This document shows positions 9,925 through 34,935 of a stretch of 37,785 bases of DNA, one piece after another. The notes below the pieces were generated by a model. It was given only the letters and a program-made list of their open reading frames with translations, was not told the DNA's origin and did not search any database. A program made the position numbers and the translations under genes. How positions within the stretch are numbered: the first letter of the stretch is position 1; the number at the start of each line of letters is the position of its first letter. Location: the NCBI GenBank assembly GCA_945868485.1, contig CAMBLS010000004.1:1-37785 (forward strand), read 5' to 3'. This DNA is from an uncultured Lachnospiraceae bacterium (GTDB lineage Bacteria; Bacillota; Clostridia; Lachnospirales; Lachnospiraceae).

Positions 9925-10431
9925 TCAGCCTTTCTTTCCACAACATTTCTTGTATTTCTTACCACTTCCGCATGGACACGGGTCATTAGGATATACCTTA
10001 TCCGGTTTAACAACCGTAGTGGAAGATTTCTGCTCTCTGTAGAGTGCCTTGCGCTTGTCCTCATCAAAGATTTCTTCCCATTCCGGCAATTCATACAGCC
10101 AGTCTGCCCCTGCTCCTACCATATTTTTATAAAGAAGCTCCTTGTCAAATCCAAGATTTACCTGAGTGTCTTCCTCCATTTCCTCAATAGGATTTGCTTC
10201 CTTCAAGCTGTCGTTGATTCCATCTAAGAATCCTGTCATAGTCATAATATCAATGCCATATTTTTCAGATAGTTCTTTCACCGTACCGGTTACAACTTCA
10301 TCAGGGTTCTTTAAAAGTTCTGCATATATATCTTTTTCCTTCTGGAAATAGTCAGCCCAGAATCTCTGTAAATCTCCTTTATTGGCTGTTTCTGAATAAG
10401 CCACATCACGCCATTTTTTAAGCAGTGCCAT
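9925..10431 (-). CDS. SEC-C motif (SecA-like zinc-binding) protein
   Basis: C-terminal [26 protein letters not shown] motif. Confidence 0.88.
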
Positions 10432-10563
10432 AATTATTCCTCCTTATCAACACACTTTCGTGCTTTTCGCTGTTACACCCAAAGCAAATGCCACTTTCTG
10501 CATCAGTTTGTTTTCACATGCGCCTATTATATACTATCTTTCAAAAAAAGTAAATTTTTTTAT

Positions 10564-11118
10564 TTAGAATGAATAAGGTCTGATTTTTTGAGCAATAATA
10601 CTAATAATCAATGGATCCCCCTCCTTTGATAACGTGGAACCTCCACGGCGGGAAACCACGATACAACAGATAAATAAATACTTATCCTCCCCTAAAAAGC
10701 CCCCGGACTGCAAAGACGCAGGTTCGGGGGCTTTGTACCAGTTTTGCGCCGAAAGCTGGCAGACTGTATGATCATCCAATTCTATTATACAGACATCTTC
10801 TTTTTCACAACTCATGGCACAGGAAATTTTATACATATTTTTTCTGCTGATTGCACCAATCTCTTCTAACAGATTGATCATGCGGTATACCGTTGCTGTA
10901 CCAATTGAAGAATCTATGGAGGATGCCCTGTAATAGATTTCCTTGCAGCTGGAACATTCCTCCTGCAAAATCACATCAAGGAGCATCTGTCTCTGTTTGG
11001 TGATTCTGCATCCTCTTTCTCTCAGTCTTTGAAGCACTATTTCTTTCTTCATTTTGGTTCTATGAAATTTCATAATATCCTTGTCATGTCTATTATCGTT
11101 TGTCAAACTCCGGGACAT
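10564..11118 (-). CDS. Fur family transcriptional regulator, atypical C-terminus
   Basis: GCRITKQRQMLLDVIL...SSIGTATVYRMINLLEEIGAISRKNMYKISC winged helix of Fur. Sequence after SAQNWYK is non-canonical. Confidence 0.8.
   Translation of the reverse strand: MSRSLTNDNRHDKDIMKFHRTKMKKEIVLQRLRERGCRITKQRQMLLDVILQEECSSCKEIYYRASSIDSSIGTATVYRMINLLEEIGAISRKNMYKISCAMSCEKEDVCIIELDDHTVCQLSAQNWYKAPEPASLQSGGFLGEDKYLFICCIVVSRRGGSTLSKEGDPLIISIIAQKIRPYSF
10694..10734 (-). terminator. Strong intrinsic-terminator-like hairpin inside the fur ORF
   Basis: Minus strand AAAGCCCCCGaacCTGC-GTCTTT-GCAGtcCGGGGGCTTTTT. Confidence 0.85.
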
Positions 11119-11130
11119 TTTTCCCCCTTT

Positions 11131-11268
11131 TTAGTGGCAATGACCTCCGCAATTACTGCAGTTGCCACCGCACTGTAATGATTTACCTTTTTTCTTATCA
11201 TGCATCATGCTTCTGATTATTTGTATAACAACACCAATCAGCACTGCTCCTACTAAAAATGTTGCCAT
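11131..11268 (-). CDS. FeoB-associated Cys-rich membrane protein (45 aa)
   Basis: My translation of the feoB-fur gap: MATFLVGAVLIGVVIQIIRSMMHDKKKGKSLQCGGNCSNCGGHCH*, preceded by GAGAGGAG. Absent from the supplied ORF track because of its size. Confidence 0.9.
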   Translation of the reverse strand: MATFLVGAVLIGVVIQIIRSMMHDKKKGKSLQCGGNCSNCGGHCH

Positions 11269-11280
11269 TTAATCTCCTCT

Positions 11281-13443
11281 CTATTCTCTTGCCAAACCTT
11301 TAACACTGGTATTTAACGTCCTGCTCTCCTTGTAGGGTCTGAACAAAAGATATAACATTCCAATTACAAACAGGATTGCAACAATAGTTCCTATTCCAAA
11401 TGCGCCGGTAGTGATCAATGTACCAATCTGATAGATGCACATGGATACTATATAAGCCAGCACACACTGGTAACTGATTGCAAACCAGAACCACTTTGCA
11501 TTGTTCATCTCTCTCTTAATGGCTCCCATTGCAGCAAAGCAGGGGGCGCAGAGAAGATTAAATACCAGAAAACCATAGGAGGCAATGGGAGTCATAACAC
11601 TTGCTAGGCTTCCCCAGATTTCAGCTCCATCCTCAGCAACTTCCGCAAAGCCAAACAGAAGTCCGAAAGTTGCTACTACATTCTCCTTTGCAATCAGGCC
11701 GGTCACAGCTGCTACCGCCATCTTCCAGCCTTCGCCTGCCTGCGTCCATCCAAGAGGTGCAAAAATCCATGCAATGGCATTCCCAATCACTGCCAGAATG
11801 CTCTCATTTAACTGTTCTGCCTCCAGCATGCCAAATCCGCTCTCCGTCCATCCAAAGCTCATTAAGAACCAAAGGACAATCGTGGATAACAGGATAATGG
11901 TTCCTGCCTTTTTGATGAAGGACCAGCCACGTTCCCACATGCTACGAAGCACATTACCCACAGTAGGCCAGTGATAAGCAGGAAGCTCCATAACAAAGGG
12001 AGCCGGGTCACCTGCAAACATTTTTGTTTTCTTTAAAATAATACCGGAACAAATGATTGCTGCTACTCCAACAAAATAAGCACTCCATGATACCCACCCC
12101 GCATTGTCAAAGAAGGCACCCGCAATCAACGCAATAATGGGGAGCTTTGCACCACACGGAATGAAGGTGGTGGTCATAATAGTCATCTTACGATCGCGGT
12201 CATTTTCAATGGTACGGGATGCCATAATCCCTGGGACGCCACAGCCGCTGCTAATCAACATGGGAATGAAAGACTTACCTGAAAGTCCAAATTTTCGGAA
12301 GATACGATCCATGATAAATGCCACACGCGCCATATATCCGCAGCTTTCCAAAAACGCCAGAAAGAGAAACAATACCAGCATCTGGGGTACGAATCCAAGC
12401 ACAGCACCCACTCCTGAAACAATACCGTCTACAATCAACCCGGTAAGCCAGTCAGCGCAACCAATGCCTTCAAAGAAACTCTGCGCACCCGGCACAATCC
12501 ATTCTCCAAACAAAGTATCATTGGTCCAGCCAGTAAGCCAGTCACCTACAGTAGTAACTGAAACATAATATACGACAAACATTATCAACGCAAAAATGGG
12601 AAGTGCTGCCCATCTGTTAGTAACGATCTGGTCGATCTTATCGGAAGTTGTCAGCTTTTCCTTTCTGGATTTGGTTACACACTCCCCAATAATAGATGAA
12701 ATGTAAACATATCTTTCATTGGTAATAATACTCTCTGTATCATCGTCAAAAGCCTCTTCCATCTGTCTAATTTCTTCCGATACGTCTGGAACAGCCTTCA
12801 TCTGGTTCTGGATCTTATCGTCCTTTTCCAATAGCTTGATTGCAAAGAAACGCTTCTGTTCCTCCGGCACAGTATTTCCAAGCTTACTCTCCACTGCACA
12901 AATAATCTTTTCTGCTTCGGATGAGAAAGTATGTACCGGTGCAGATGATGCCTTGCGCTGTGCAAGAGCCACTGCTTTTTCTGCCGCATTTTGAATACCC
13001 GTTCCCTTTAATGCAGAAATTTCCACCACCTCACAACCCAACTTCTTGCTGAGTTTATCTACATGAATCTTGTCTCCTGTCTTTGCCAGAATATCCACCA
13101 TATTAACTGCCATCACAACAGGAATGCCAAGCTCCATAATCTGAGTAGAGAGATAAAGGTTTCTCTCAATGTTCGTACCGTCCACGATATTGATAATAGC
13201 ATCCGGTCTTTCGCTAATCAGATAATTTCTGGCAACCACTTCCTCCAAAGTGTATGGGGAGAGGGAATAAATACCAGGCAAATCCATGATGACAACATCC
13301 TTATTACCTTTTAATTTGCCTTCTTTTTTTTCTACAGTTACACCCGGCCAGTTACCAACGAACTGATTGGAACCGGTCAATGCATTAAACAAAGTTGTTT
13401 TACCACTATTAGGATTGCCTGCAAGTGCAATTTTTATTGACAT
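11281..13443 (-). CDS. feoB: Ferrous iron transport protein B
   Basis: MSIKIALAGNPNSGKTTLFNALTGSNQFVGNWPGVTVEKKEG; 720 aa. Confidence 0.98.
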   Translation of the reverse strand: MSIKIALAGNPNSGKTTLFNALTGSNQFVGNWPGVTVEKKEGKLKGNKDVVIMDLPGIYSLSPYTLEEVVARNYLISERPDAIINIVDGTNIERNLYLSTQIMELGIPVVMAVNMVDILAKTGDKIHVDKLSKKLGCEVVEISALKGTGIQNAAEKAVALAQRKASSAPVHTFSSEAEKIICAVESKLGNTVPEEQKRFFAIKLLEKDDKIQNQMKAVPDVSEEIRQMEEAFDDDTESIITNERYVYISSIIGECVTKSRKEKLTTSDKIDQIVTNRWAALPIFALIMFVVYYVSVTTVGDWLTGWTNDTLFGEWIVPGAQSFFEGIGCADWLTGLIVDGIVSGVGAVLGFVPQMLVLFLFLAFLESCGYMARVAFIMDRIFRKFGLSGKSFIPMLISSGCGVPGIMASRTIENDRDRKMTIMTTTFIPCGAKLPIIALIAGAFFDNAGWVSWSAYFVGVAAIICSGIILKKTKMFAGDPAPFVMELPAYHWPTVGNVLRSMWERGWSFIKKAGTIILLSTIVLWFLMSFGWTESGFGMLEAEQLNESILAVIGNAIAWIFAPLGWTQAGEGWKMAVAAVTGLIAKENVVATFGLLFGFAEVAEDGAEIWGSLASVMTPIASYGFLVFNLLCAPCFAAMGAIKREMNNAKWFWFAISYQCVLAYIVSMCIYQIGTLITTGAFGIGTIVAILFVIGMLYLLFRPYKESRTLNTSVKGLARE

Positions 13444-13501: not shown

Positions 13502-13723
13502 TTATTCCACAATAATCATTTCCGCATCAGCTTTTCTTATAGACAATTCATACCCCCGGACAGTTACCTCAATTGGGTCTCCCAAGGGTGCTACCTTTCT
13601 TACAAAAACATCTACTCCCTTGGTAATGCCCATATCCATAATCCTTCTTTTGACAGGCCCCTCTCCAGTAAGTTTTTGCACCTTCACTGTCTGTCCACAG
13701 GAAATTTCCTTCAACGTCTTCAT
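13502..13723 (-). CDS. feoA: FeoA domain protein
   Basis: 73 aa SH3-like: ISCGQTVKVQKLTGEGPVKRRIMDMGITKGVDVFVRKVAPLGDPIEVTVRGYELSIRKADAEMI. Confidence 0.92.
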   Translation of the reverse strand: MKTLKEISCGQTVKVQKLTGEGPVKRRIMDMGITKGVDVFVRKVAPLGDPIEVTVRGYELSIRKADAEMIIVE

Positions 13724-13764
13724 TTTTTTGTTTCCTTTCTCGTTATAAGGGTTCTTATTAATTT

Positions 13765-14001
13765 CTAAACCATAATCTTGTTTGCCATATCTTTTCCTAT
13801 GGCAACTCTTGAATCCTTCACATTCACAATCAGGTTGCCTCCCGTATCAGATACGACTGTAACAGCACTGCCTGCAACAAAGCCGAGGTTCTCCAAAAAT
13901 TTCCTGACTTCTTCCTTTCCTCCGACTTTTTTGATGGTATTTTCTTCTCCAGCTCTCATCATTGTCAGTGGCATCATATCACCCCTTCTCTCATATTGCA
14001 T
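13765..14001 (-). CDS. feoA: FeoA domain protein (second copy)
   Basis: 78 aa: GGKEEVRKFLENLGFVAGSAVTVVSDTGGNLIVNVKDSRVAIGKDMANKIMV. Confidence 0.9.
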   Translation of the reverse strand: MQYERRGDMMPLTMMRAGEENTIKKVGGKEEVRKFLENLGFVAGSAVTVVSDTGGNLIVNVKDSRVAIGKDMANKIMV

Positions 14002-34626: not shown

Positions 34627-34734
34627 GTACACAAAAGAAACATATAGGAAAATCATAGACAAACAACTTTCCCATACTCTTTTAAACGTACAACCAGTTA
34701 CTCGTGGTTTGAAACTATCGTTTCTGTACAGCAA

Positions 34735-34915
34735 TCAGGCAGGTCTCCCGGCTTGAAAATCATCGCATCCGCCATCTTCCCAGGAAAGGATTTCCTTGTT
34801 TCCCAGTGATATATCGGCTTCAGCTCCCTAATTACGGTGACGAGTTCGCACAGGACTTACACCTGTTTCCCTTTTCACCAGAGCCAATTATACAAATTGC
34901 TCTGACACCTGACTA
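34735..34915 (-). ncRNA. Cobalamin riboswitch (aptamer)
   Basis: Minus strand CAGGTGTC...GGTGAAAAGGGAAACAGGTGTAAGTCCTGTGCGAACTCGTCACCGTAA...GAAGCCGGGAGACCTGCC (B12 box). Confidence 0.96.
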
Positions 34916-34935
34916 CTTCATATTCAATTCGCATT

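Follow-up and report, generated by a model that had tools for sequence, protein, structure and literature searches.

A conserved candidate small RNA gene on the strand opposite a truncated fur reading frame in an uncultured Lachnospiraceae bacterium

The terminator-like hairpin that lies within the fur open reading frame (ORF) of this bacterium is very probably the terminator of a separate gene on the + strand, a candidate small RNA (sRNA), to which a deletion or rearrangement has fused the 3' part of fur. The sequence of the window (the whole stretch of 37,785 nucleotides analysed) and of related genomes directly shows where the junction lies, that the element is conserved, and what promoter motif, hairpins and synteny it has; the remaining steps we infer. 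Coordinates are collected in Table 1.

Table 1. Features at and around the fur/sRNA junction, in window positions
Feature	Position	Strand	Remarks
SEC-C motif protein	9925..10431	-	NF004088 / SEC-C; divergent partner of the candidate sRNA
SEC-C promoter, sigma-A type	10554-10526	-	TTTACT-17-TATAAT
fur ORF tail, out-of-family	10564..10734	-	putative antisense reading of the sRNA gene; 55 codons
Putative sRNA promoter, sigma-F/sigma-G type	10570..10603	+	TGAATA 10570-10575, spacer, AGCAATAATACTA 10591-10603
Candidate sRNA, long form, ~130 nt	10607..10736	+	start and end inferred; z-score, alignment, presence in 32/38 genomes
5' hairpin ATCAATGGA-TCCCCC-TCCTTTGAT	10607..10630	+	C-rich loop; invariant stem, outermost pair with compensatory change
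Invariant core AATACTTATCCTCCCCT	10677..10693	+	alignment; exact in at least 119 contigs
Bidirectional terminator hairpin, native (empty-site) type	10694..10736	both	+ strand U-tract cut to UUU
Rearrangement junction, sRNA terminator / fur 3' part	10734..10735	both	sRNA-locus similarity starts at 10734, G023 fur similarity ends at 10735
Retained feo-linked Fur-like part	10735..11118	-	codons 1 to about 128; winged-helix domain residues 34-96
Cys-rich small protein, feo operon	11134-11268		between feoB and fur
feoB	11281..13443	-	upstream of fur, same operon
Two FeoA-like genes, feo operon	13502-14001

The fur reading frame and its 3' end

The fur ORF encodes 184 aa (11118-10564, - strand), and beyond Lys129 its C-terminus is unrelated to the Fur family. 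Across the break the translation reads ...ELDDHTVCQLSAQNWYK|APEPASLQSGGFLGEDKY... (QLSAQNWYK, then APEPASLQSGG...), at the point where Fur relatives go on with ...WYRVISEGLKMCGYVKNQK.... The Pfam FUR match (PF01475, 4e-12) is confined to residues 34-96, which hold the winged-helix DNA-binding domain; the C-terminal dimerisation/metal domain is missing, since no residue past 96 is matched and the native C-terminus is gone. The closest homologue, that of genome G023 (73%), continues VISEGLKMCGYVKNQKVRNVTADPCANDCFC-stop and finishes ...LSAHDWYRVISEGLKMCGYVKNQKVRNVTADPCANDCFC-stop, and the ends of other relatives resemble it. Similarity at the DNA level between the window and the G023 gene stops exactly at 10735. 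From this limit and from the G023 C-terminus, fur appears to have lost its last 25-30 or so codons, its stop codon and its 3' region with its own terminator, as in the suggestion of an earlier note on this DNA that a 3' rearrangement or deletion had replaced the normal C-terminus. The alignment with Fur homologues proposed in the same note bears this out. Orthologues end normally or otherwise, and a terminator within the ORF is not conserved among them.

The out-of-family tail is most readily taken as antisense sRNA sequence and not as protein-coding, because its frame is interrupted by TAG, TAA or TGA in relatives G018, G035, G015 and G034 and the DNA is conserved as a separate element. Elsewhere in the genus the C-terminus of the feo-linked Fur has been altered repeatedly, by an in-frame deletion in G003 (L005), a fusion to an HD domain in G034 (L007) and an early stop in G011 (L009). 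Since these losses or changes are independent, the region past the DNA-binding domain seems dispensable in the genus.

The hairpin within fur

The earlier note was correct in describing an intrinsic terminator inside the ORF along with the atypical C-terminus. A strong G+C-rich hairpin, AAAGCCCCCG...CGGGGGCTTT, lies at 10734-10697 and is followed on the fur strand by a T-run, TTTTT at 10698-10694; the smaller hairpin that the note also mentions, CGTGGA-GGT-TCCACG, is at 10647-10633. A terminator scan detects the hairpin at 10734-10694, and a 211-nt fold on the fur strand is modestly better than shuffles (z -2.1). As the scan total is at chance level (4 against 3.8 expected), the hairpin is held to be real because of its conservation; the stretch from 10734 leftwards shows 66-91% identity in related genomes. 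It had also been proposed that the hairpin regulates fur output, a reading at odds with its genomic context: in every relative fetched the hairpin is part of an element beside a SEC-C gene, never beside fur, and for that reason its origin is best placed in that element, as its terminator. Where a genome holds both fur and the element (G003, G015, G020, G034 and G036), the two lie apart.

A candidate sRNA gene on the opposite strand

What the earlier note had overlooked is that the hairpin, with all the sequence to its left, makes up a conserved gene of the opposite strand. Including its promoter, with the pattern TGAATA-N15/17-AATA, the whole candidate element spans about 10570-10736 (+). A 138-nt RNA of the + strand folds far better than shuffles (z -4.65, 0/200), and four relatives give similar results. 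In an alignment of 25 copies two blocks are invariant, TCAAYGGA-CCCCC-TCCTTTGA and GATAAA..AATACTTATCCTCCCCTAA, and the order is a stem (TCAAYGGA/TCCTTTGA) closing a CCCCC loop, a variable hairpin region, the GATAAA..AATACTTATCCTCCCCTAA block and a terminator hairpin that carries compensatory changes. The arrangement is that of a C-rich sRNA, the C-rich motifs being in a loop or single-stranded and, together with the terminator, more conserved than the rest.

All 27 genus copies (27/27) have a GNATA box upstream, and in every copy except one a T stands before it. A spacer of 15-17 nt separates the box from a -10 region of the AATA type, which is AATACTA in most. The U-tract of the window terminator is UUUUU on the fur side and UUU on the sRNA side, as compared with UUUU on the sRNA side in G018; the sRNA-side tract is only UUU because the fur junction cut the tail.

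Distribution of the element

A search of the genus recovers the element in 32/38 genomes, of which the core pattern confirms 30 and the other two have an inserted repeat. Identity to the window copy is 91% in G018, 79% in G036 and 66-67% in G035, G004 and G009, where the element stands directly upstream of the SEC-C gene; that gene is beside the sRNA in 28/28 full genus loci fetched. In G036 tandem copies of AACAAACGCYGCCGCGCTTCGCRAGTCAGCTTATTGTA separate the SEC-C gene from the sRNA promoter (L029 about 1200-1450, G036:C20). When 392 genomes of the order were searched with a model, 18 proved to have the element, all of one family, and SEC-C was nearby in 14/17 of these loci outside the window.

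A scan of 85,000 species genomes for exact AATACTTATCCTCCCCT returned at least 119 contigs or stretches, nearly all of them Lachnospiraceae among the matches listed, with carriers including Hungatella, Lacrimispora, Kineothrix, Lactonifactor, Anaerocolumna, Roseburia hominis and Lachnoclostridium phytofermentans. The strict promoter TGNATA-N-AATA precedes the core in 86/112 of the distinct loci listed, against 3.2 in shuffles and 1/112 on the reverse strand; a looser sigma-F form does so in 104/112 (9.3 in shuffles). Directly after the core comes a stable hairpin in every one of the 112 loci listed (112/112; mean -29.7 against -16.6 kcal/mol for shuffles). Two forms differ in how far the core lies past the -10 region, 20-27 nt in the short one and 38-155 nt in the long one; the window copy is of the long form. 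SEC-C lies within the fetched stretch at 44/83 core loci and is no neighbour at 39/83. Some genomes have two copies, e.g. Hungatella effluvii and 1XD21-29. At loci L114, L197/L143, L097 and L098, from Hungatella and others, two or more close copies occur, some not adjoining SEC-C, which points to a paralogous family.

No family matched the element in an Rfam 15 scan at gathering score; the only known element or riboswitch at that score in the window is a distant cobalamin riboswitch (RF00174, 107 bits, 34721-34927, - strand), and none is credible at E<=10. A comparison for plasmid or phage origin of the element gave no match. Literature searches found no paper on the element and, among the papers searched, no report of a forespore sRNA in Lachnospiraceae.

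Sigma factors and sporulation

Control of the sRNA by sigma-F/sigma-G is likely. SigF, SigG, SigE, SigK and SigH are all encoded in the window genome, as is a small acid-soluble spore protein (SASP) whose upstream -10 region, GTTAATACTATGAA, is almost the same as in several sRNA copies. Beyond the genus, the core is associated with spoIIR (18/24 against 28/107 Lachnospiraceae; odds ratio 8.5, Fisher 2e-5, relatedness being ignored). SpoIIR (PF09551) was found in 0/38 genomes of the window's own genus, and forespore expression is therefore less certain there than in its relatives. Because the five sigma factors and the SASP gene are present, this absence alone is not read as a lack of sporulation.

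An integration site at the sRNA 3' end

In many relatives a gene for a 417-aa tyrosine integrase ends about 200 bp beyond the sRNA terminator. Half copies, consisting of CATACTTATCCTCCCCTAA plus terminator, occur elsewhere in G016, G015 and G033, some of them on other contigs; that of G016 is 42-45 kb from the sRNA (L084, G016:C51:138000-148000; also L083, L085, L086, L090). A repeat, TGTTGCCAAGTGTTGCCAA, precedes the half copies and also stands on the integrase side. Terminators are of two types, the native window-like type on half copies and another on the integrase-adjacent sRNA. This pattern fits a mobile element that would integrate at the core and swap terminators, and the sRNA 3' end in many relatives appears to be its integration site, of which the window copy would be an empty example. 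The suggestion that the hairpin region is a mobile repeat thus stands in part: in its own genome the element is single-copy and not a mobile repeat, and in relatives the terminator region is where integration takes place.

Comparison with known sRNAs and integration sites

CsfG of Bacillus subtilis is a sigma-F/sigma-G sRNA, CU-rich in its loops and between helices, with a strong terminator; it lies divergent to a protein gene and was initially misread as other-strand sequence, RF00516 ('ylbH') having been drawn on the opposite strand (PMC3574147, PMC8216469). The window sRNA likewise has a sigma-F/sigma-G promoter, as a sequence motif, together with a C-rich loop, a strong terminator and a divergent protein gene. 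It differs in its CU-rich motif (TTTCTCCTCTCCC in the CsfG consensus, TTATCCTCCCC here), in having SEC-C as its neighbour whereas CsfG lies between ylbG and ylbH, and in belonging to a family that is often multi-copy and so far restricted to Lachnospiraceae. RF00516 gives no match at E<=10 in 10380-10850 and none above cut-off in the genome. A match elsewhere (L062, 24.5 bits) is below cut-off and was judged to be chance, control genomes matching equally. By architecture a CsfG-like, C-rich candidate forespore sRNA is the closest known kind; since RF00516 does not match and neighbours and motif differ, membership of CsfG itself is not claimed.

The C-rich regions of RoxS/RsaE and FsrA in Bacilli have been proposed to pair with ribosome-binding sites (PMC8216469). 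These sRNAs differ in their promoters (ResD, Fur), and the Rfam scan gave no match for the window sRNA. As with mobile elements at the 3' ends of tRNA, tmRNA and sRNA genes, a tyrosine integrase lies just past the sRNA 3' end in many relatives. Unlike in those systems the target here is a C-rich sRNA and the element would bring a different terminator, the window copy representing the empty site.

Proposed account of the junction

An imprecise deletion in the window lineage would have joined fur to the sRNA terminator, so that the fur frame runs for 55 codons antisense to the sRNA. Transcription of feo-fur would then end at the bidirectional terminator, and the transcript probably terminates without a stop codon, as the earlier note expected, giving mostly stop-less fur mRNA. 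The Fur product would be of about 130 aa, having the DNA-binding domain but not the native end, and would be released, or tagged through trans-translation; the 184-aa protein would be made by read-through only. On the other strand, the sRNA may be transcribed by sigma-F/sigma-G RNA polymerase in the forespore, and its C-rich loop and UUAUCCUCCCC core could pair with Shine-Dalgarno regions, like the C-rich sRNAs of Bacillus. With its shortened U-tract, some sRNA transcripts may run antisense into fur. Among the ribosome-binding sites of the window genome no site is fully complementary to the core. A target search with the core complement gave 12 sites at <=1 mismatch, equal to the reversed control, and no convincing ribosome-binding site.

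Alternative explanations

That the junction is an assembly or binning chimera, the real fur being intact elsewhere, is unlikely. In its favour, the junction is known from this draft genome only (330 contigs, 3% contamination), no second genome with it was found, and fur and the sRNA are never adjacent in relatives. Against it, the contig of 37.8 kb extends to both sides of the junction, into the feo genes one way and the SEC-C gene the other; the two sides of the breakpoint have only about 3 bases (TTT) in common, too little for a repeat that could misguide assembly; and the genus has the other C-terminal losses of fur described above (G003, G034, G011). Another reading is that the terminator was selected to keep Fur low through non-stop mRNA. 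The brfA gene of Bacillus carries a terminator of transcription inside its reading frame and is expressed from non-stop mRNA (PMC8874680), and the window fur transcript, like those of brfA/arfA, should stop within the ORF; purifying selection also acts on the retained fur codons (dN 0.09, dS 2.6 over 110 codons against G023). A selected device of this sort is nonetheless very unlikely. The arrangement is confined to a single genome, the hairpin is conserved as a component of a different gene, and the purifying selection mostly reflects history older than the fusion; unlike in brfA/arfA, termination within the ORF here appears to be an accident of gene fusion.

The element might instead belong to the SEC-C gene on the - strand, as its 5' leader or as some unrelated cis element, given that SEC-C always adjoins it in the genus. 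This is highly improbable, as the element lies outside any leader (the SEC-C promoter is downstream of it), the promoter motif is on the + strand (86/112 of the loci listed, against 1/112 for the reverse complement) and 39/83 core loci are without a SEC-C neighbour. It is scarcely credible that the fused tail is a functional new C-terminal domain of Fur. An open frame does extend 55 codons past the junction, but the frame is interrupted in several relatives, its sequence is conserved as RNA, and the terminator precedes most of it. Fusion of fur to the terminator of an independent sRNA gene is accordingly the account that we retain.

Significance

Lachnospiraceae are major gut spore formers. 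The element probably represents an undescribed and often multi-copy family of C-rich sRNAs, with the invariant core AAUACUUAUCCUCCCCU, that is transcribed under forespore sigma factors, occurs widely in Lachnospiraceae, lies beside SEC-C, is a counterpart of CsfG and has a 3' end that serves as an integration site. At the level of annotation, a strange C-terminus combined with a terminator inside an ORF can betray a gene on the other strand. In Bacillus, CsfG is not known to have a target. A second, independent family, whose 17-nt core is invariant, would permit a comparative test of the role of C-rich sRNAs in the forespore, and the presence of that core in cultured species (Hungatella, Lacrimispora, Kineothrix, Lachnoclostridium phytofermentans) makes such a comparison feasible.
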